Translations under genes and position numbers: made by a program
In this document: in pieces, positions 6,008 through 62,465 of the stretch
Numbering within the stretch: position 1 is the stretch's first letter
Layout of the letters: each line of letters starts with the position of its first letter
The notes under the pieces: model-generated
Seen by the model: only the letters and a program-made list of their open reading frames with translations
Databases searched by the model: none
Told to the model about the DNA's origin: nothing
Source of the DNA: Beggiatoa alba B18LD
GTDB taxonomy: Bacteria > Pseudomonadota > Gammaproteobacteria > Beggiatoales > Beggiatoaceae
DNA length: 64,000 bases
Direction: 5' to 3'
NCBI RefSeq assembly: GCF_000245015.1
Contig: NZ_JH600070.1
Span: 1,050,010-1,114,009 of the forward strand

Positions 6008-6015
6008 CTTTTTTT

Positions 6016-6080
6016 GTCTGAATCAGAATTCACAGAATTCACAGAATTTTCAGAATTAGCAGAATTAAAAAGCGTGATTC
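6016..6080. repeat. GAATT short-unit repeat tract (family B)
   Basis: Roughly 9-base units built on CAGAATT (CAGAATTCA, CAGAATTCA, CAGAATTTT, CAGAATTAG, CAGAATTAA) are strung together after GTCTGAAT. Related tracts occur at 25789, 31333 and 62281. Confidence 0.65.
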
Positions 6081-6116: not shown

Positions 6117-6193
6117 TATAGTAAACGTACGATAAAGTGATTTAAATTTAGGACTGGCAGTCCTTCGTACCGTTTTATAGTGCGTTTACTATA
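6117..6193. repeat. Palindromic intergenic repeat (family A), short form
   Basis: Both termini are present: TATAGTAAACGTAC at the left and GTGCGTTTACTATA at the right. Only one of the two central arms (GGACTGGCAGTCC) is kept, which makes it about 18 bp shorter than the copies at 31193 and 53365. Confidence 0.7.
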
Positions 6194-25707: not shown

Positions 25708-25787
25708 TATAGCAAACGTATTATAAAACGACATGGAGGACTGGCAGTCCTGTGAGGACTGCTAGTCCTAGATTTAAATCACTTTCG
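25708..25787. repeat. Palindromic intergenic repeat (family A), inverted copy
   Basis: The element lies in the opposite orientation to the other copies. It begins TATAGCAAACGTATTATAAAACG, contains both central arms GGACTGGCAGTCC and GGACTGCTAGTCC, and ends at ATCACTTTCGC without the outer left terminus. Confidence 0.7.
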
Positions 25788-30160: not shown

Positions 30161-30190
30161 TCTGCGTTCTGTGAAAAAAGATTGTTTTAG

Positions 30191-30230
30191 AACTGGCAGT
30201 CTTCAAAAGATTGCCAGTTTTATTTTTAGC
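30191..30230 (+). terminator. Rho-independent terminator of dctQM
   Basis: A 13-bp stem (AACTGGCAGTCTT / AAGATTGCCAGTT, one G-T) is followed by TTTATTTTT. It lies between convergent genes and may also slow transcription from the Nudix gene on the other strand. Confidence 0.8.
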
Positions 30231-31192: not shown

Positions 31193-31288
31193 TATAGTAA
31201 CCGTACCATAAAAGTGATTTAAATTTAGGACTAGCAGTTCTGTGAGGACTACCAGCCATCTATATTGTTTTATAGTACGTTTACTATA
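31193..31288. repeat. Palindromic intergenic repeat (family A), complete copy
   Basis: The 96-bp element begins TATAGTAACCGTACCATAAA and ends TTTATAGTACGTTTACTATA, imperfect terminal inverted repeats matching at 18 of 20 positions. The centre, GGACTAGCAGTTC TGTGA GGACTACCAGCC, is a degenerate version of the palindrome at 53399. No coding sequence is inside. Confidence 0.75.
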
Positions 31289-31295
31289 TTGATAG

Positions 31296-31460
31296 TAACC
31301 TGAGTTCGGCGAGTTTCTTTTAAAAAGACAACAGCTTGTCTGAATCAGAATTCACAGAATTTTCAGAATTAGCAGAATTAAAAAGCGTGATTCACCTTAA
31401 CTTTTTGGTTTGAGGGTTTTAAATCCTGTTAATCCTGAAAATCCTGATTCAGACAATGTT
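31296..31460. repeat. Inverted family C tail plus family B tracts
   Basis: AACCTGAGTTCGGCGAGTTT (inverted tail) leads through GACAACAGCTTGTC, a small palindrome, into CAGAATT units (31333-31380). After a TTGAGGGTTTTAAA spacer come ATCCTG units (31420-31450) ending GATTCAGACAA. Confidence 0.65.
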
Positions 31461-31540
31461 TTAATCTTGTCTGGTGAATCCCGATGAAAAACAAGAGAAT
31501 AATCTCTGCCAGTCCTTCAAACCTTTTCGCGTGTTCCAAC

Positions 31541-33595
<2,055 letters not shown>

Positions 33596-33630
33596 TTAAA
33601 ACAAACAGCGCGGGCGTAATCTGCGGTTAA

Positions 33631-33724
33631 ACGCGCATCCCTCCGCTGGTACTAACCAGTTCAGGTTCAAAGGGTCTTTCTCAGTTTTTAGCCTGTTAGT
33701 CGGTTGCTAAAAACACCCCTAGCC
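33631..33724 (-). promoter_or_regulatory. TPP riboswitch (thi box) controlling thiC
   Basis: Read on the minus strand the RNA contains GGGGTG near its start, ACTGAGA, CCCTTTGAACCTGAACTGG, TTAGTACCAGCGGAGGGA. These are the conserved P2-P5 elements of the TPP aptamer. It lies about 50 bases before the thiC start, so control at translation initiation is plausible. A variable P3 arm (GACTAACAGGC) is visible. Confidence 0.93.
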
Positions 33725-34098
33725 GTTTTTGACAGTATTTTGACTATCTCAGTGAGATAGTAGCATTACATGCTTGGCTAAAACATCTTTATTGATGGTG
33801 AGTGGTATGGAAAAAAGGCGATGTTAATCTGAATTAATGGGTTTATGAGAAAGCATGTTGTGTTGTGCAAGCAACAAAACTGTCAAGTTTCTATGTCACA
33901 ATTGAAGGTGTTTTATCTTGGGCTTCTGTGCGTCTGTGTGAGTATTTCAGCTTTTTTATAAAAACTGCTTGTTTTTTACAGTAAGTATTGAGAGTTATTA
34001 AGTATTCACACGCTGTACAGCTTGTTTAATTCTATGAAAAACCTGACTAATTTTAGGGGTGTAACATTGTTGTCATAATTCAACAATAAAATCATTTT
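33725..34098. other. Intergenic region between the thiC leader and pstC
   Basis: These 374 bases must hold divergent promoters for thiC (minus) and pstC (plus). No gene is seen. A weak Pho-box-like sequence lies at 33880. Confidence 0.45.
33880..33899 (+). promoter_or_regulatory. Possible degenerate Pho box upstream of the pst genes
   Basis: CTGTCAAGTTTCTATGTCAC resembles two CTGTCA half-sites, but the spacing is 13 rather than 11 bases and it lies 200 bp before pstC. The operon type makes PhoB control likely; this particular site is uncertain. Confidence 0.25.
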
Positions 34099-46074: not shown

Positions 46075-49000
46075 ATGGATGAGCGATTGATTGAGGCGGT
46101 GAAGGCGTTTCTTCAGGTTTCTAGTAATGAAGAATTAGGGCAAGTTTTGCAGGCTTTTCCTGAATTATTAACGCAGGAAACAGAAATTAACGCCATCTTT
46201 GAATTTGGGATTGCACAAGCACGCGGAATAAATGAAATAGAGAAAGCAGAATTTTTTGAGCAACGCCATCAAATGCTAAAAAAAATTCAACAAAATTTTG
46301 CGCAACAAAATAACAATCCTTTTATATCCTTTATTCAACAAGCTCAAACCGCAGAACAACAGTATCTCCGTACAAGTGACAGAAATAGTTTAGATAGAGC
46401 CATTCAGGCATGGGAACACATCTTACAGCATCCAGAATTTGAAAAAATGGGAGCTGATTTTAAACTGAGGGTACTTAATGATAGCGCAATTACATATTCG
46501 CGCCGTTATCGGGCAAGAGGTCAGTTAGCTGATTTAAATACAGCGCTGAGAGCATGGGAGTTTGCGGTTGCTAACACCCCGCCCGATTCTCCTGACTTGC
46601 CCTCTATGTTCAACAATTTGGGCAATGGGCTAAGTAACCGCTATTCGCGCTCAGGAGAGTTAGCGGATTTGCAAGTGGGGATTGAGGCCTACCAACAAGC
46701 CACAGATAAAACCCCGCCCGATTCCCCTGACCTGCCCTCTCGGCTCAACAATTTGGGCACTGGGCTTCGAAACCGCTATTCGCGCTCAGGAGAGTTAGCG
46801 GATTTGCAAGCGGGGATTAAGGCTTTCCAACAAGCCATAGAGAAAACTCCGCCCAATTCCCCTGAGCTGTCTGGCTATCTCAACAATTTGGGTGCTGGGC
46901 TTACAGACCGCTATTCGCACTCAGGAGAGTTAGCGGATTTGCAAGCGGGGATTGTGGCTTACCAACAAGCCATAGAGAAAACCCCGCCCGATTCCCCTGA
47001 CTTGCCCTCTCGGCTCAACAATTTGGGCACTGGGCTTCGAGACCGCTATTCGCGCTCAGGAGAGTTAGCGGATTTGCAAGCGGGGATTGCGGCTTTCCAA
47101 CAAGCCATAGATAAAACCCCGCCCGATTCCCCTGACTTGCCCTCTCTGCTCAACAATTTGGGCAATGGGCTTCGAGACCGCTATTCGCGCTCAGGAGAGT
47201 TAGCGGATTTGCAAGCGGGGATTGCGGCTTTCCAACAAGCCATAGAGAAAACCCTGCCCGATTCGCTTGTCTTGCCCGCTATGTTCAACAATTTGGGCAT
47301 TGGGCTTACAAACCTCTATTCGCACTCAGGAGAGTTAGCGGATTTGCAAGCGGGGATTGAGGCTTACCAACAAGCCATAGAGAAAACCCCGCCCGATTCC
47401 CCTGACTTGCCCTCTCGGCTCAACAATTTGGGCAATGGGCTTCGAGACCGCTATTCGCACTCAAGAGAGTTAGCGGATTTGCAAGCGGGGATTGCGGCTT
47501 TCCAACAAGCCATAGAGAAAACCCCGCCTAATTCCCCTAAGCTGTCTGGCTATCTCAACAATTTGGGTGCTGGGCTTCGATACCACTATTCGCGCTCAGG
47601 AGAGTTAGCGGATTTGCAAGCGGGGATTGCGGCTTTCCAACAAGCGGTTGGGTTAGGCGAAAAACATTCAATTGCTGATTGGCTCACTTCAGCCCGTAAC
47701 TGGCTCAACTGGGCATTTGAACGCAATAGCTGGACGGAAATAGAAGAAGCCTATCCAGCCCTCCAAAAAGCCAGTAAACAATTGGTTGAAAAACAATTAT
47801 TGCGTGAGCATCAAGAAGCCTTTTTACAAGATACACAAGGTATTGCGGTTAAAGTCGCTTACGCACGGATTCAAACAGGGCAACTTGAAAAAGCGGTTGA
47901 AGCCTTAGAACAAGGGGTTGCGCGTTTATTAAGTAATGCCTTAGCGCGTTCTAACGCCGATTTAACCCAGTTACAACAAGATAGTCCTGAGTTATATGAG
48001 CGTTATCAAGAGTCTTTGCAAGCCGTTAATACGACACAACGCTTTTATCAAAATGCCACTGATGACCTCCGCGAAAAAGCACAATCTGATTGGCAAACCG
48101 CAGAAAAGCAATTTAACGAATTGCTAGAAAACATTCGCCAGTTACAAGGACATGAAAACTTTTTACTCATTGCAACCGATATCAACACGGTTAAACAAGT
48201 TTCCCAACAACAGCCATTAATTTATGTTTTCTTTACAGAAAAAGGCGGTTATGCCTTAAACGTTTTTCAGGGGCAAATTCAAGCAATTGCTTTACCTGAA
48301 TTAACAAATACCGTTTTATCAGAAAAAGTAAATAGCTATTTTCAGGCTTATAACAAACGTAAAGAAAATAGAGACGCTTGGTTTAATGCAATTGAGACAA
48401 TGACAACATGGTTGTATCAAGCTGTCATGCAACTGATTTTACAAAATATCCCCACAGATTCACAAATCACACTAATTCCTATCGGATTATTAAATTTATT
48501 ACCGCTTCATGCTGCTTATGCTACGACGGATAATAAACGCCGTTATGTGCTTGATGATTATATGATTAGCTATGCACCGAACGCGCTTTCTTTACAAACC
48601 GCTCGTAAACGCACACAAATCCCCAGACAGAAGTTATTAGCAATTGAAAATCCTACAGAAGATTTGATTGCTTGTACTATTGAAATTGAAGCTCTCGAAA
48701 AATATTTTGAGGAGCGTAAGATTTTTACTCATGAAGAAGCAACCCAAGAAGCTGTTAAAAATGCGCTGAATAATGACTATTCCGTACTACATTTTTCTTG
48801 TCATGGTGGCGCAGAACTAGAAGACCCATTAAAAACAGGGTTGTTAATGGCACATAATGAAATGCTGACCGTGCAAGATTTCTTAAACGCACAACTCAAT
48901 GCGCGTTTAGTCAGTTTATCCGCTTGTGAAACGGGGATGATAGGCGTAAAACAAGTTGAGGAAGTGGTGAGTTTACCCACCAGCTTATTGCAAGCGGGTG

Positions 49001-51042: not shown

Positions 51043-53313
51043 TTATAGCCAGTTTCCTATCATCAGAAATGCCGCCCAAAATGCAGGATGGCGGTATTTT
51101 TCTTGTTTTAGCATAAATAATTGCGCGTTTTGTAGGGCTTTGGCTTTCGACATGCCTTCTTTTTGGAGTTGGCGATAAAATTCGGCGATAAGTTGGGTGG
51201 TCGCTTGGTCGTCGATTGACCAAAGCGTTGCTAAAGCACTGCGTGCGCCTGCTTTTAAGGCAATGCTGGCGAGTCCTAAAGCGGCTTGGTCATCACCGAC
51301 TGCCGTTTGGCACGCGCTCAGGGTTAATAATTCCATCGGTTCATTGCGTAAGTTATTTAGACGAATCACTTTTTCTAGGCGATTCATGTCTAAGCGTCCA
51401 TCGTAGGTGAGTAAAAAAGTTTTTTGCGGGTCGCTGTTAAATTGCCCGTGTGAGGCGATGTGTACGACATTGTAAGGGGTAATGTTGAGCGCGTTGGAGA
51501 AGTTGGCAACGGTGAATTCTCGATTCATTAAGATGTTCGCTTTATCTCCATAAAGTTGTTTTAGTATATTGATTTCTTGGTTGATATTGCTCAATGCGGG
51601 GTAGCCTTGTACGCCTTCGGATAAGCCTGTTAGTAAGACGTTAAGTTGTTTTTTATCAATGGGTTTTGGGTCTGTTAAAGTAAGTCCTAGGGTGGTTACG
51701 ACGGCGTAGCGTTCAATGAGGAATTGTTTACCGTCATGTAGGGTAGCAAGTGGAATCGTGCGTAAAACGCCATCGGGAATCAGTACCAGTGTGTTTATAG
51801 CTTGTTTTTGGAGTTCGGCTTCTAAGGGGCGTATCAGCCAGTTATAAAGGCGTTGCGCATAGGGAAGATAGTCCGTTGTGTTGCGGGTTTCGAGTTCGAA
51901 GCGAAATTCGTTCACTTCGTCTTTTAGGGCATTTTGGGTAAAGGGGATAGTAAATTGTTGAATTCCATCGGGGAGACTCAATAGCATTTCTATGCGGTTA
52001 TTGAGCAAAATGGGGTAAATAACAGCCGTGTGGGGAATGCCTGTGTCTAAGATGCGTTGTTTCGCTTGGGAATTGGTGACGCATTCGTCTTGGAAATAGT
52101 CTTGTAGTTCTACGGTTTTCAGTTTTTCTATGGTGTCGCGGGCTTCATCTAGCCAAATTTTTTTATTTTCTGCCGTTTTTGCCGTTTGTAGCAGTAAATC
52201 AGCCAGTTCAAAATATAGGGGGCTGATGGTATCGCGGAACGATTGGGTTGTATTGCGATAGCCGAAAGCGATTTCTTGACGGATAGGTTGAAGTTGGGCG
52301 ATGGCTTGACGATAAGTGGGGATTGCGTCGTTGATTTGGTTTTGTTTGGCTAAGATGCGCCCAAGTTGCCATTGCCAGCGGTAGAGAATTTCGGGAATAT
52401 GGCTTTGTTGTGCAAAGAAAATGGCTTGTTGGGTGAGTTTTTGCGCGTCTGCAAGGCGGTTTTCGCGTTCGTAGAGTTGTCCTAAATAGCCTTTTGCATA
52501 GGATTGTAGGCGGTTATCTTTGAGTTGTTCGGCAAGGCTTAATGCAGTATTGAGGCTGTTGTAGGCGAGTGTCACGCCATCGGGATTTTTTTGCGTTTGT
52601 AGTATTCGTTGTGTGAGTTCGCCAATGCTGATGAGGTTAAAGGCTTTTGTGTATTGGCTAGGGAATTGGTTCAAGGTGTCATAGGCTAGTTTTAAGGAGT
52701 CTAAGGCTTGGGGAATTTGGGTATTTTTCCAGTAAGCATGGGCGCGATTGATAAGAATACGTATTGATAAGATAGGGTCATCGGCTTGTTGGGCGTTGTG
52801 CAAACTTTGGGTATAGATGTCGATAGCGTCGGTGTAGTAGGCTTCAACGGTGAGGACATTGGCGTGATTATTCAGGACGGTAGCCCGTAGGCGTTGTGAG
52901 GCGTTATCAGGAATATTGAATAAACTGCGGTCGGCATAATCGCGGGCGAGGCGTTCTTGACGGGTGGCTAGGGCTAAATCGCTGAGTCCGACATAAAGAG
53001 CGGTTAAGCGGAGTTTATCGTTGTTTGCAAGAGTTAGTGCTTGTTGTAATGCATCGATTGCTTTTTGGCTCAGTCCCATAGCTTGATAGGCTTGTGCTAG
53101 TTGGCTAAGAATGTCAATTTTTTGCGGTACGGATAGTTTTTCGGTATTAAGCCGTTGTTGCCATTGTTGTACGGCTTGTTCATATTGCCCTTGTTGGAAA
53201 AATAAACGCGCGTTTTGTTCATAAGGTTGAATAAAATCGGTAATTTCTGCTTCTGCTGATAGCACAGTGTGACAGAATAGGGATAGCAGGAAGCAATAAG
53301 CAATATATTTCAT
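51043..53313 (-). CDS. Exported TPR-CHAT protein (2)
   Basis: The 756-aa protein has an N-terminal signal peptide (hydrophobic 5-17, then VLSAEAE), so it is probably periplasmic or anchored. TPR repeats cover about 30-380 (QYEQAVQQWQQRL, SQKAIDALQQALTLA, DAIPTYRQAIAQL). The CHAT domain (about 430-756) has H622 in IASHGQF and C668 in LSACQTA, with ALATLWSID and HPAFWAAFLMIG at the end. This TPR-CHAT layout is common in cyanobacteria and other filamentous bacteria. It converges on the second Rpn gene, 32 bp apart, so it is a separate unit. Confidence 0.88.
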   Translation of the reverse strand: MKYIAYCFLLSLFCHTVLSAEAEITDFIQPYEQNARLFFQQGQYEQAVQQWQQRLNTEKLSVPQKIDILSQLAQAYQAMGLSQKAIDALQQALTLANNDKLRLTALYVGLSDLALATRQERLARDYADRSLFNIPDNASQRLRATVLNNHANVLTVEAYYTDAIDIYTQSLHNAQQADDPILSIRILINRAHAYWKNTQIPQALDSLKLAYDTLNQFPSQYTKAFNLISIGELTQRILQTQKNPDGVTLAYNSLNTALSLAEQLKDNRLQSYAKGYLGQLYERENRLADAQKLTQQAIFFAQQSHIPEILYRWQWQLGRILAKQNQINDAIPTYRQAIAQLQPIRQEIAFGYRNTTQSFRDTISPLYFELADLLLQTAKTAENKKIWLDEARDTIEKLKTVELQDYFQDECVTNSQAKQRILDTGIPHTAVIYPILLNNRIEMLLSLPDGIQQFTIPFTQNALKDEVNEFRFELETRNTTDYLPYAQRLYNWLIRPLEAELQKQAINTLVLIPDGVLRTIPLATLHDGKQFLIERYAVVTTLGLTLTDPKPIDKKQLNVLLTGLSEGVQGYPALSNINQEINILKQLYGDKANILMNREFTVANFSNALNITPYNVVHIASHGQFNSDPQKTFLLTYDGRLDMNRLEKVIRLNNLRNEPMELLTLSACQTAVGDDQAALGLASIALKAGARSALATLWSIDDQATTQLIAEFYRQLQKEGMSKAKALQNAQLFMLKQEKYRHPAFWAAFLMIGNWL

Positions 53314-53364: not shown

Positions 53365-53459
53365 TATAGTAACCGTACCATAAAGTGATTTAAATCTAGG
53401 ACTGGCAGTCCTGTGAGGACTGCCAGTCCTTCATGTCGTTTTATAATACGTTTGCAATA
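53365..53459. repeat. Palindromic intergenic repeat (family A), best-preserved copy
   Basis: The 95-bp element starts TATAGTAACCGTACCATAAA and ends TTTTATAATACGTTTGCAATA. Its centre, GGACTGGCAGTCC TGTGA GGACTGCCAGTCC, is a 13-bp perfect inverted repeat around a 5-base loop. It lies just upstream of ureE. Confidence 0.78.
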
Positions 53460-53517: not shown

Positions 53518-53961
53518 ATGTTAAAAGTTTTAGAACGTCTTGCTTATCCACAACCTGCAAGCCTATTTTTAAGTTTATCGTTTGATTTACGTCAAAAAAG
53601 CCGTTTATGTACGCAGTTAAACGATGGGACAGCGGTCTTGCTGGATTTACCCCGAGGGCAAATTTTGCGCGGGGGGGATTGTCTAAAAGCGGAAGATGGT
53701 CGGATTATTGAGGTACAAGCCGCTTTAGAACCCGTGACGCATGTTGAGATTGTTGAGCCTTTATTATTAGCGCGGGTGTGTTATCACTTGGGCAACCGCC
53801 ATATTGCTTTACAAATTACATCGCAATGGCTACGTTATCAGCCTGACCATGTATTAGATGATATGTTACGACACTTCGGCTTAAATGTACGTGTCATCGA
53901 TGCCCCGTTTGAACCTGAAGGCGGCGCATATCAAACAGGACATCATCATCACGCACATTAA
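53518..53961 (+). CDS. ureE: Urease accessory protein UreE
   Basis: UreE is a nickel chaperone that delivers Ni2+ to apo-urease with UreDFG. The 147-aa protein shows LNDGTAVLLDLPRGQILRGG, the metal-site CYHLGNRHIALQI, and DHVLDDMLRHFGL. The C terminus ends in a short GHHHHAH tail that can hold extra nickel. No other ure gene is in the window, so it is detached from its usual operon here. Its promoter must lie in or next to the family A repeat upstream. Confidence 0.92.
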   Translation: MLKVLERLAYPQPASLFLSLSFDLRQKSRLCTQLNDGTAVLLDLPRGQILRGGDCLKAEDGRIIEVQAALEPVTHVEIVEPLLLARVCYHLGNRHIALQITSQWLRYQPDHVLDDMLRHFGLNVRVIDAPFEPEGGAYQTGHHHHAH

Positions 53962-57000: not shown

Positions 57001-57066
57001 AAAAGACCTGCTAGGTTTTTAAAACCTAGTAGGTCTCTGTTTTATTTTTAGAATCCTGCTGAATTT
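57001..57066. repeat. Hairpin-tail intergenic repeat (family C)
   Basis: The stem GACCTGCTAGGTTTT/AAAACCTAGTAGGTC (57005-57034) is followed by a TCTGTTTTATTTTTAGAATC tail. It lies downstream of xisI and may serve as its terminator. Confidence 0.65.
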
Positions 57067-57767: not shown

Positions 57768-60700
57768 ATGCCCCAACAAGTCCACGTCTCCCCATTTATC
57801 ATCAATCCCCCCGCTGATTTATACACCCCCGCCCGTCGTCAGGTTTCTGCTGATTTTGCTTTGCGGTATGCCAATCGGCAGAAAATTGAAGAAAATGAGT
57901 TAAAAGCCTTTGGGGCGGATTTATGGCGGGCTTTAAATATCGACGAGGCATTTGATACCGCTTATCGACAAGCTTGCCCCGCTATATTACCGATTATTCT
58001 CGAAAGCCAAGACGCACAACTGCAACAGCTTGCATGGGAATGTTTATACCATCCGCAACATGGTTTTTTAGCTAAACATCCACATTTCACCCTGTCACGC
58101 CGTGTGCCGACGCAATGTGTTGTAACGCCTATTCAGCAACGCCCCTTAAAAGTCCTGTTATTCACCAGTTTGCCCGAAAATCTCACCGAGCAAGGGCGGT
58201 TGAATGTTGAAAATGAACAAGCCCATGTTTTAGAAGCCTTACTCGAGCCAGTTCAGCGCGGTATTGTACAGTTAGAAGTGCCCGACGATGGACGTTTTCA
58301 GACTTTACAACAGTTTTTAAAACAAGGGTTTGATGTGGTGTTTTTAAGCGGGCATGGGATATTTCATGATGACGCACATTTAACGGAAAAATATGGCGAA
58401 TTTTGTTTCGAGGATGACAACGGCAATGCTGTGATGGTGCGCGATAGTGAGCTGGCAAAGGCTTTTCGTGGGCAGGGGGTGCAATGTGTTGTGTTGTCGG
58501 CGTGCGAATCGGGACAAAGTGCATCGGCAGATTTAAGTACAGGTTTGGCGCAATCGTTGGTAAATATCGGCTTACCGCATGTTGTTGGGATGCGCGAATC
58601 AGTATTAGAGATTGCAGGCATTGCTTTTGCGCGGGCATTTTGTGAAGCCATTGCCCAACAAGCGCGGATTGATGAAGCGGTGCAAGCAGGACGGCAGGCG
58701 ATTGAGCGCGGGGACACAGTCAGCGAAGATTTAAAAAATCATTGGCGTGAATTGAGTATAACGCAATGGTCTTTGCCAATATTGTGGAGTCGTGACCCTG
58801 CTGTGCCTTTGGTGAATTGGGGGTTTGAGGTTAAACCGCCTGCTGATACGGTTTTATCTTCTTCATTATCAGGGTTACCACCTTTACAACGTTTTATCGG
58901 ACGACGGCGCGAACTGAGGGAATGGCGCAACCGTTTAGAAAGTCGTCAAGTTAAACAGTTGCTCATCACAGGCGAAGGGGGACAGGGAAAAACCGCGCTT
59001 GTCACCTATTTAGCGCAACGGTTACAGCAAAAAGGCTTTATTGTTCATGTATATTCAGCGCGTCCTGAAAATAGTTGGACAGAGTTTGAAACACTTTTAC
59101 AGTTTAGTTTAGATGGAGTACATACGCCTGAATTTACAGCGAAACAGGAAAAATGCAAGACTGTAAAATTATTTGCCCAGTTATTAATCTCAACCTTACA
59201 GAAACAAACCCAACGTAAATTAGTATTGATTTTTGACAATTTAGAGTCTTTACAAGATTTAAAAACACATGCATTAACTGATGAAACAATAACAACATGG
59301 TTAAGCGTTATTCAGCAAATGGGCGACAGTGCGCCAACGGTTTTATTAACATCGCGTTGGAAATTACCGAATTGGCAAGCAGGATATTTGTCTTTATGTC
59401 ATGCAAATTATGGCGATTTTATTCAATTCATTTATTTACAAAAAACCCCTTTACCCAATGAAAAAGAAGCGCGGTTTAAATTACTTCGTGAACTTTATCA
59501 AGCCTTTCAAGGTAATTTTCGTGGCTTAGAGTTCTTTCTTAAATTGCTCCCCGATTTAAGCCAAACTGACCGCGAACAGTTATTAACAAACATTAAAACT
59601 GCTCAAACAGATTTACAAACCAATCAACTTTTAGAAAAAATCATTCAAACCGCGTTAGAAGCAGATGAACGCGAGTTATTAAGACGTTTAACGGTTTATA
59701 CAACCGCTGTCCCACAAGAAGGGGTGAAAAAAATTGCCCTGAGTGAGCCTCAATTAAAGCCTGTCGAGAACCTACTTCAACGCTTAAGTCATTATTCTTT
59801 AATCGAATGTGTTTTTAACCCACCTTTACAACGCGAGATTTTCTATTGTGGTGCAATGGTGCGTTTATGGATACAAGCACATTTACCCCCCATCACCACC
59901 ACGTTATACAGTCAAGCGGCTGACTATCAACGCTATCTTTTTGAGACTGATAAAAAAGATTATGAACAAGCCCTTGCAGTGCACGAATCCTTGACACTGG
60001 CAGGAAAAAAAGCAGAGGCGGATAGCTTTGCGTTAGATAAACTTGTGCCCTCTTTCTACCTCGTGGGTTTATATCGTACCTTGTTGGAATGGGTAGAGCC
60101 GATGCAAGGCGGAGAAGATAAAGCAATTGAAAGTCGAGTTTTAAGTTGGCTAGGCACGACAAACCACGCACTAGGAAACTACGAAACCGCCCTGCGCTAC
60201 TTGCAACAGTCCTTAGCGATTTTCAAAGAATTGGGAGATAAAAAAAGCGAAGGCACGACGCTCAACAATATGGCAACTATCGCCCATGCCCGAGGCGACT
60301 ACGAAACCGCCCTGCGCTACTTGCAACAGTCCTTAGCGATTCAACAAGAAATCGGCGATAAAAGTGGCGAAGGCGCGACGCTTAACAATATTTCTCAAAT
60401 CTATGATGCCCGAGGCGACTACGAAACCGCCCTGCGCTACTTGCAACAGTCCTTAGCGATTCAACAAGAAATCGGCGATAAAAGTGGCGAAGGCACGACG
60501 CTCAACAATATGGCAACAACTGCTTATGCCCGAGGCGACTACGAAACCGCCCTGCGCTACTTGCAACAGTCCTTAGCGATTCAACAAGAAATCGGCGATA
60601 AAAGTGGCGAAGGCGCGACGCTTAACAATATTTCTCAAATCTATGATGCCCGAGGCGACTACGAAACCGCCCTGCGCTACTTGCAACAGTCCTTAGCGAT

Positions 60701-61178
60701 AAGACAAGACATCGGCGATAAAAGTGGCGAAGGCACGACGCTCAACAATATTTCTTCTATCTTTCAAGCCCGAGGCGACTACGAAACCGCCCTGCGCTAC
60801 TTGCAACAGTCCTTAGCGATAAGACAAGAAATCGGCGATAAAAGTGGCGAAGGCACGACGCTCAACAATATTGGACAAATATTTAAAGCCCGAGGCGACT
60901 ACGAAACCGCCCTGCGCTACTTGCAACAGTCCTTAGCGATAAGACAAGAAATCGGCGATGTGGCAGGCTTGTGTGCGACGTTGTTTAATATGGGACATAT
61001 TCATTTACAAAATGAAGAAGTGCAGGAAGGAATCGCGAAATTTGTAGAAACGTATCGAATTGCTCATAAGATTGGTTATGCACAAGTCTTGCGGGCGTTG
61101 GAGCAGTTGGCGAAGGATTTGGGACAGGATGGCTTAAATTTTTGGAAACAATTAAGTAAGCAATTTCCTGAATCATAA
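57768..61178 (+). CDS. STAND-type protein: CHAT protease - P-loop NTPase - TPR array
   Basis: The 1136-aa cytoplasmic protein has three parts. The N-terminal CHAT domain (about 1-330) has H196 (LSGHGIF) and C246 (LSACESGQ). A STAND/NB-ARC-like NTPase follows, with FIGRRRELREW, Walker A GEGGQGKT (402-409) and Walker B KLVLIFDNLES; a winged-helix-like part extends to about 740. The C terminus holds TPRs, including seven near-identical 40-residue units (about 805-1090). Effector, switch and repeat sensor in this order is the plan of NLR-like immune proteins, where ligand binding to the repeats drives oligomerisation and activates the protease. Defence or programmed death is inferred; no target is known. 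The genes downstream may belong to it. Confidence 0.9.
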   Translation: MPQQVHVSPFIINPPADLYTPARRQVSADFALRYANRQKIEENELKAFGADLWRALNIDEAFDTAYRQACPAILPIILESQDAQLQQLAWECLYHPQHGFLAKHPHFTLSRRVPTQCVVTPIQQRPLKVLLFTSLPENLTEQGRLNVENEQAHVLEALLEPVQRGIVQLEVPDDGRFQTLQQFLKQGFDVVFLSGHGIFHDDAHLTEKYGEFCFEDDNGNAVMVRDSELAKAFRGQGVQCVVLSACESGQSASADLSTGLAQSLVNIGLPHVVGMRESVLEIAGIAFARAFCEAIAQQARIDEAVQAGRQAIERGDTVSEDLKNHWRELSITQWSLPILWSRDPAVPLVNWGFEVKPPADTVLSSSLSGLPPLQRFIGRRRELREWRNRLESRQVKQLLITGEGGQGKTALVTYLAQRLQQKGFIVHVYSARPENSWTEFETLLQFSLDGVHTPEFTAKQEKCKTVKLFAQLLISTLQKQTQRKLVLIFDNLESLQDLKTHALTDETITTWLSVIQQMGDSAPTVLLTSRWKLPNWQAGYLSLCHANYGDFIQFIYLQKTPLPNEKEARFKLLRELYQAFQGNFRGLEFFLKLLPDLSQTDREQLLTNIKTAQTDLQTNQLLEKIIQTALEADERELLRRLTVYTTAVPQEGVKKIALSEPQLKPVENLLQRLSHYSLIECVFNPPLQREIFYCGAMVRLWIQAHLPPITTTLYSQAADYQRYLFETDKKDYEQALAVHESLTLAGKKAEADSFALDKLVPSFYLVGLYRTLLEWVEPMQGGEDKAIESRVLSWLGTTNHALGNYETALRYLQQSLAIFKELGDKKSEGTTLNNMATIAHARGDYETALRYLQQSLAIQQEIGDKSGEGATLNNISQIYDARGDYETALRYLQQSLAIQQEIGDKSGEGTTLNNMATTAYARGDYETALRYLQQSLAIQQEIGDKSGEGATLNNISQIYDARGDYETALRYLQQSLAIRQDIGDKSGEGTTLNNISSIFQARGDYETALRYLQQSLAIRQEIGDKSGEGTTLNNIGQIFKARGDYETALRYLQQSLAIRQEIGDVAGLCATLFNMGHIHLQNEEVQEGIAKFVETYRIAHKIGYAQVLRALEQLAKDLGQDGLNFWKQLSKQFPES
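60180..60959 (+). repeat. Seven tandem 120-nt coding TPR repeats
   Basis: Units of 120 nt begin at 60181, 60301, 60421, 60541, 60661, 60781 and 60901. The first 40 nt of each (ACGAAACCGCCCTGCGCTAC onward) are identical in all seven. Units two and four are identical over all 120 nt. Variation is confined to the residues before and after DKSGEGTTLNN and to the loop before ARGDYE. Confidence 0.95.
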
Positions 61179-62280: not shown

Positions 62281-62465
62281 TGAAATTTCTTTAAAAAGAC
62301 AAACGTTTGTCTGAATCAGGATTTTCAGGATTAAAAGATTGTCTGAATCAGAATTTTCAGAATTAACAGAATTTTCAGAATTAAAAAGACAAGAAAATTA
62401 AAAGAATAAAAAATTATGTTTTTAATTCTGCTAATTCTGAAAATTCTGTGAATTCTGATTCAGAC
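62281..62465. repeat. Long GAATT/ATTCTG tract (family B)
   Basis: The tract holds a small palindrome GACAAACGTTTGTC, then CAGGATTTTCAGGATT, CAGAATTTTCAGAATTAACA, and a complementary ATTCTGCTAATTCTGAAAAT block. The two halves are inverse complements, so the whole can fold as a long imperfect hairpin. Confidence 0.65.

Follow-up and report, generated by a model that had tools for sequence, protein, structure and literature searches.

Among small repeats, MITEs, which are moved by DDE enzymes, and REPs, which are moved by HUH enzymes, are usually regarded as distinct classes. The best-known IS630-family MITEs are the Correia elements of Neisseria, which are about 100 bp long, have short terminal inverted repeats that start with TATAG, duplicate a TA, lie between genes, and depend on a transposase from elsewhere. 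REP/RAYT (TnpAREP) systems, or REPtrons, consist of short, many-copy palindromes with arrays beside a Y1 HUH transposase gene, and the cited sections also report REPs inside various genes and flanking repeats that extend into tyrosine transposase genes at either their 5' or their 3' end (PMC2817692, PMC3733652, PMC6006769). In Pseudomonas putida and P. fluorescens, degenerate GTAG-1 REPs are joined to unrelated stem-loops in hundreds of copies, and Rickettsia palindromic elements are palindromes inserted in coding genes (PMC3733652). Candidatus Thiomargarita nelsonii carries many copies of MITEs that are TATAG-ended hairpin elements, with no parent IS identified in the cited part of that report (PMC4853749).

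Here, we describe a repeat of Beggiatoa alba B18LD that is probably a chimera of two mobile DNAs, with the arms of an IS630 MITE surrounding a REP-like core. It resembles the Correia elements in all of the features named above, but its centre is a REP-like double palindrome common to other phyla and to RAYT-like genes. As in REP/RAYT systems, the core is a short, many-copy palindrome with arrays beside a Y1 HUH gene (PMC2817692, PMC3733652, PMC6006769); unlike in those systems, no GTAG or CGTC tag was seen with it, each of its halves is itself palindromic, a RAYT-like gene contains an in-frame copy midway along its sequence, and in B. alba it rides inside a DDE-type MITE. The Pseudomonas GTAG-1 fusions similarly join a REP unit to another inverted-repeat sequence, but the cited section does not describe that partner as the end of a DDE transposon (PMC3733652), whereas the B. 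alba arms are IS630-type ends with a TA duplication. The T. nelsonii MITEs come from the same broad bacterial group and have similar TATAG ends, and a link to the present core is not described in the cited part of that report (PMC4853749). The in-gene palindromes discussed below are reminiscent of the Rickettsia elements (PMC3733652), but they have other sequences and occupy one recurrent site in a transposase family.

We analyzed a 64-kb stretch of the B. alba genome (4.27 Mb, labeled G000 here), which we call the window. The initial annotation reported a palindromic repeat at five positions in it, and this repeat is real, with a copy at each. The following features belong to it or are related to its core:

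53365-53459, + strand: 95-bp MITE copy between a TPR-CHAT gene (51043-53313, -) and ureE (53518-53961, +)
53365-53397, + strand: arm A of this copy, TATAGTAACCGTACCATAAAGTGATTTAAATCT, an IS630-type end
53398-53430, no strand: REP-like core, a 33-bp hairpin in which a GTG spacer separates two 15-bp palindromes
53431-53459, - strand: arm B of this copy, inverted, with terminal bases GCAATA vs the usual GCTATA
6117-6193, + strand: complete 77-bp copy with one 15-bp palindrome
31193-31288, + strand: complete 96-bp copy whose double core has decayed
25708-25785, - strand: copy with a double core and a truncated right arm
41-91, + strand: copy that loses its left arm where a second repeat element ends (end motif at 25-41)
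100-138, no strand: stand-alone, core-related hairpin GGTCTGCCAATCC..GGACTGGCAGACC, terminator-like, flanked at the base by A and T runs, no MITE arms
30188-30222, no strand: stand-alone, degenerate core relative without MITE arms, followed by TTTTT

Three copies are thus complete (77, 96, and 95 bp) and had been placed correctly, whereas the two truncated ones needed small corrections: the copy at 41, which lacks the left arm, ends at 91 rather than 93, and the copy at 25708, which lacks the end of the right arm, aligns to 25785. All five copies lie between genes and both orientations are present, the copy at 25708 being reversed, as had been stated. The proposed common centre, GGACTGGCAGTCC, is exact in four of the five copies, but the copy at 31193 has GGACTAGCAGTTC instead. 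The description of the inverted repeats as near-perfect was slightly generous, as the outer 20 bp agree well but the inner parts of the arms differ. With up to two mismatches, the centre pattern matched 18 times in the window, with the palindrome counted on both strands and three places lying outside the five copies; 100 shuffles gave a mean of 0.73 and a maximum of 4. An Rfam scan of the window at gathering thresholds returned only a TPP riboswitch (33621-33730, - strand; RF00059, 65.2 bits), so at this threshold the element matches no listed RNA family.

Several other repeats share this window. A second family with ends AACCTGAGTTCGGCGAG occurs at 25-41, 25852, 31297-31608, 31670, and 62268; its copies sit between MITE ends in other stretches, and locus L099 contains an IS that has such ends and encodes a DDE_Tnp_1_3 transposase. 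A second REP-like hairpin with the same stem-loop design (e.g. AGACCTGCTAGGTTTTTAAAACCTAGTAGGTCT) lies at 156-188, 31541-31573, 31617-31653, and 57002-57038, and RAYT-like genes of relatives also contain this design. In addition, 9-mers resembling TCAGAATTA form short direct repeats in intergenic repeats (31330-31385, 6008-6072, and 62333-62388), and tandem repeats of 135 and 120 bp lie inside long ORFs (46438-47682 and 60048-61067).

A genome-wide search with the consensus, which the initial annotation had proposed as a check, found many copies with defined ends beyond the window. The terminal 20-mer, with up to three mismatches, matched G000 140 times forward and 131 times in reverse (271 in total; reversed control, 1), which translates into a copy number of the order of 130, some of the copies being broken. 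A search with the 95-mer found at least 41 places with at least 84% identity over 72-95 of the 95 bases, a lower bound in that 40 of 225 candidates were scored. We then paired facing ends by script in 80 G000 stretches (76 around copies and 4 chosen regardless of copies) plus the window, 614,076 bp altogether. This yielded 93 elements, comprising 43 of 77 bp, 38 of 95 bp, seven of 65-96 bp, and five of 220-307 bp; the last group has extra sequence between the ends, and one of its members has its right end in common with a 95-bp copy. Another 43 ends were unpaired, and these are partly chance matches at three mismatches.

The two main sizes differ in their centres. The 95-bp copy at 53365 consists of a 33-bp arm, a 33-bp hairpin, and an inverted 29-bp arm, and across the family the facing arms are of two types, A (the form listed above) and B (TATAGTAAACGCACTATAAAACGATGCGA). 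Between them, the long form has AGGACTGGCAGTCCT-GTG-AGGACTGCCAGTCCT and the short form a single AGGACTGSCAGTCCT, giving a core consensus of a 33-bp hairpin, AGGACTGGCAGTCCT-NNN-AGGACTGCCAGTCCT, or one 15-bp half. The two units of the core are near-identical 15-bp palindromes set 18 bp apart, so slippage would delete exactly one unit, and the 77-bp form may have arisen from the 95-bp form by such a loss of 18 bp. The direction of the core relative to the arms is not fixed: the spacer reads GTG in 25 of 41 long forms and CAC in 9, and the centre base of the short forms is G in 24 of 44 and C in 18. Two typed representatives folded as single hairpins with RNA energies. Nearly every double core in the G000 stretches, which had been picked around ends, lies in or beside MITE ends: of 48, 40 belong to paired elements, 7 lie next to one end, and 1 stands by itself.

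The outer ends mark the element as an IS630-family MITE. Neither the 77-bp nor the 95-bp form has any coding capacity, and the arms, about 30 bp each, appear to be the ends of an IS630-family insertion sequence minus its transposase gene. The genome encodes IS630-family copies with HTH_Tnp_IS630 and DDE_3 matches in two overlapping ORFs, and PF13358 has three matches without stops and two that are damaged or partial. One such copy, L097, is an 880-bp IS with two overlapping ORFs (its HTH_Tnp_IS630 part was identified in the copy at L099). Its end, TATAGCAAACGAATTATAAAA, agrees with the arm form TATAGCAAACGTATTATAAAACGAC at 22 of 24 positions, a level that is also reached by 4 of 3934 24-mers starting with TATA outside paired elements, a control in which unpaired ends are still included. 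The remaining arm forms agree with IS ends at 17-20 of 24 positions, making the overall range 17-22, and a clean one-to-one pairing is absent. In the sister genome G001, the IS630-type copy L337 has an end, TATAGTAACCGTACTATAAA, that is identical over 20 bp to G000 ends; its first ORF encodes approximately the same protein as in L097, and its second ORF is broken in two. Two other candidates for the parent IS were rejected: L336 of G001, with ends 1111 bp apart, holds only a partial IS630 gene and another ORF that is presumably IS1-like, and L101, despite its perfect arm, consists of an IS fragment fused to a different repeat. Across 40 genomes, the arm pattern matched 271 times in G000, 22 times in G001, and at most once in each of the 38 others, whose reversed controls gave 0 to 5 matches; among these genomes, the MITE ends thus appear confined, or nearly so, to the genus.

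The target site was examined by joining the flanks of the 87 complete elements with a single TA and searching these junctions against the stretches. Matches were obtained for 32 of the 87, including self-matches and gapped ones. By our reading, eight are gap-free nested insertions (56-82 bp, 89.6-98.8% identity, one TA), the empty sites being other repeats that received the element. The predicted TA duplication is seen at these eight sites, which have a single TA when empty. The search for empty sites in relatives had a mixed outcome: the ureE interval of G001 is without a copy, but it is too diverged for a base-exact empty site. Together, the IS630-type ends and the duplicated TA support the miniature-element reading of the initial annotation as regards the arms, and the IS630 transposases encoded elsewhere in the genome would be the enzymes that recognize the arms, excise the element, and insert it at TA with duplication of the TA.

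These sites also bear on whether the entire 95 bp could instead be a REP or REPIN moved by a RAYT, with the likeness to IS630 ends being incidental. The core does accompany RAYT-like genes elsewhere, as described below, and G000 does have one RAYT-like gene, L259 (G000:C2:3963125-3963406; 111.4 bits over 94 residues, cut-off 80). However, L259 has no core within 1.5 kb and is flanked by GTAGGGTGGAATA..TATTCCACC repeats, which are of another type. A RAYT with matching hairpins, as envisaged in the initial annotation, was not found in G000, where the core-linked RAYT-like group has no match at E 0.001. Already disfavored by the TA-flanked empty sites and the IS630-type ends, and at odds with the near absence of the arm pattern outside the genus, this explanation strikes us as highly improbable. 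Separately, repeats like those flanking L259 were also observed inside larger elements in L025 and L072.

In contrast to the arms, the core is widespread. With up to three mismatches, it is present in 8 of 42 genomes of the order (control, 0), and G000 has the most full hairpins (65), followed by G046 (35), G008 (33), G016 (14), and four others with 1 or 2. Ten genomes chosen from behind core hits had 1 to 54 matches, and their controls had none; overall, G000, G008, G046, G057, G058, and G063 have 20 to 65 matches and the other matched genomes at most 14. A wider scan found the core in at least 102 stretches, and the 80 listed include Thiomargarita, Venteria, and Thiotrichaceae records as well as MAGs labeled Methylomonas, Methylococcales, Chloroflexaceae, Chloroflexota, and Anaerolineae; every cross-phylum record that has a title is a MAG, so binning errors are possible among them. 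In the core variants of G046 and G063, both sides of the stem have changed together, so the hairpin is kept. Core flanks read by eye had no constant GTAG or GGAG tetranucleotide tag, and IMG/VR contigs contained no exact match to the core. A literature text search with six core 12-15-mers gave no match for five of them, and the 12-mer actgccagtcct occurred in two papers that, by their titles, concern other subjects.

Outside the genus, the core is often surrounded by different arms. We compared outer inverted repeats with those in shuffled flanks, as an earlier null had been contaminated by arms common to different genomes. In 33 of 111 copies, which were assigned to genomes by title or handle and exclude L193-L214, the outer inverted repeat exceeded the 99% level of the shuffled flanks. 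These comprised 18 of 53 in Thiomargarita, 8 of 14 in S06.Bin195, 4 of 7 in Venteria, 2 of 7 in the Methylomonas MAG, and 1 of 2 in GS09, and a few of them (at least L177, L187, L148, and one in L175) are neighboring palindromes rather than arms. No significant outer repeat was found in STC_44 (0 of 16), PL24a (0 of 5), or the others (0 of 7). The arms themselves differ (GGTAGTGATGCAATG, CCATTAAGTTAAGG, and AGTACAG). Judging from these comparisons, the core is the centre of several apparently unrelated terminal-repeat elements and elsewhere stands without such arms, and core and arms thus seem to occur independently of each other. As a side observation, L112 and L154, two similar large proteins from different organisms, carry the core in frame in what by eye is apparently the same loop (before W-D-x-H-P-L-I-R), with the core read in different frames.

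Relative to ORFs of at least 100 aa, 1 of the 87 complete elements lies inside and 8 overlap partly, whereas 84% of random placements fall inside. Of the gaps that hold an element, 30 of 85 are convergent vs 39 of 190 gaps of at least 60 bp without one (P = 0.011), and 6 of 85 are divergent vs 43 of 190 (P = 0.0019); the ORFs were crudely called and these P values are uncorrected. Such a bias would suit a plain IS630 MITE in which the central hairpin is only a terminator or mRNA hairpin and its likeness across phyla reflects convergence on an efficient terminator. Stand-alone core relatives with T-runs do exist in the window and the genome. However, terminators would not be expected to have the same 30 defined bases in records labeled Chloroflexota and gammaproteobacteria, or to lie in frame inside ORFs, as the core does in 19 of 148 places (a crude ORF test with some places duplicated), and the T-run is often absent when core copies are judged by eye. 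We therefore regard convergence as unlikely and continue to read the core as REP-like.

This reading draws its support from other genomes in which the hairpin is associated with RAYT-like genes. A 192-aa Y1-type gene of G058 has a full core 22 bp upstream and contains a half core in frame; G057, G064, and G065 have full cores in frame inside RAYT-like genes. The core flanks a Y1 HUH transposase gene in G058, G064, and G065 (as a 2-mismatch variant in G065), and cores are near 3 of 30 Y1 gene loci, the G000 locus not being among them. The REP-like hairpin proposed in the initial annotation thus holds for the core, and RAYT-like proteins may mobilize it in such genomes. Relatives of the G058 protein (E ≤ 0.001) occur in 38 of 52 genomes, many of them distant; a phage collection had no match to it, and plasmids had 12 records, all below 60% identity.

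These proteins resemble RAYTs, but at scores under the threshold of the family model. Seven matched the NCBIfam model REP_Tyr_transpos (NF047646) at 38.8 to 57.6 bits, below the cut-off of 80, and an eighth, P0001 of G064, had no model match; the G064 gene seems broken further downstream, as its halves match in different frames. A profile of 13 RAYT-like proteins searched against the PDB gave a single match with E ≤ 1, 4er8 TnpArep (E 0.0029). H58, H60, and Y88 are invariant in these 13 proteins, and Y88 is a candidate for the catalytic tyrosine. Fold prediction for three sequences produced no usable model (pLDDT 41).

Palindromes inside the RAYT-like genes are recurrent. Among 19 genes or fragments, 12 have a palindrome with a 15-17-bp stem, 4 have a 15-bp half, and 3 have none. 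The centre of the palindrome lies 16-30 codons past the start of the HUH motif, at 18 codons in 9 of the 12, and none of 1900 codon shuffles gave a stem of at least 12. A further 16 stretches contributed seven new RAYT-like genes, one with the palindrome and six without. The in-gene palindrome is absent from L320, L321, and L322, whose proteins are 61-63% identical to the query, and from L284, L295, L300, L325, L329, and L333; L327 and L330 have no motif match. The sequences vary (AGGACTGCCAGTCCT, AGACCTGACAGGTTT, AGACCTTCCAGGTTT, AAACCTTCTAGGTTT, AGACCTCTGAGGTTT, and others); RAYT-like genes contain palindromes that have the 15+3+15 design of the core but other sequence, and AGACCTGACAGG represents the other palindrome design. 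At 13 loci, in-gene palindromes match their own flanking palindromes at a mean of 13.1 of 15 positions, vs 10.7 of 15 for those of other loci, and 1 of 20,000 permutations reached the observed own-locus match; thus, the 15+3+15 design goes with RAYT-like genes. Arrays of palindromes on both sides of the gene at L285, L289, and L322 look like REPtrons.

The match between in-gene palindromes of other sequence and their own flanks also speaks against a core that arose within MITEs, without a RAYT origin, and later spread to other elements, intergenic sites, and transposase genes. G000 is the genome with the most full hairpins in the order, and almost all of them lie in or beside MITE ends, in stretches picked around ends, which is what such an origin would produce. 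Given the palindromes of the RAYT-like genes, we consider it quite improbable, and favor capture of a REP by a MITE.

More tentatively, and at somewhat less than even likelihood in our estimation, a RAYT-like subgroup may carry its own REP in frame, between the HUH motif and a conserved downstream motif, FSNLFSTY, that turns over with the flanking REPs; REPs of this design may have been captured at the centre of unrelated terminal-repeat elements, so that two transposition chemistries would carry one palindrome across genera and phyla. In the sections consulted of PMC2817692, PMC3733652, and PMC6006769 and in related literature searches, we found no REP described midway along a RAYT gene.

Both alternatives of the initial annotation, the miniature element and the REP-like hairpin, therefore hold together, and the best reading of the core is that a MITE has captured a REP. 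It would be a REP-like double palindrome of the kind seen with RAYT-like HUH transposase genes in other bacteria, and once captured it would multiply along with the MITE. Because the core-linked RAYT-like group was not found in G000, the MITE is likely the vehicle of the core there.

A MITE with a central REP would provide a route for REP multiplication in a genome in which no cognate RAYT was found, and it is relevant to the problem of orphan REPs. An in-frame REP in RAYT-like genes ties a transposase to its site in a concrete way that can be tested, perhaps for self-regulation.
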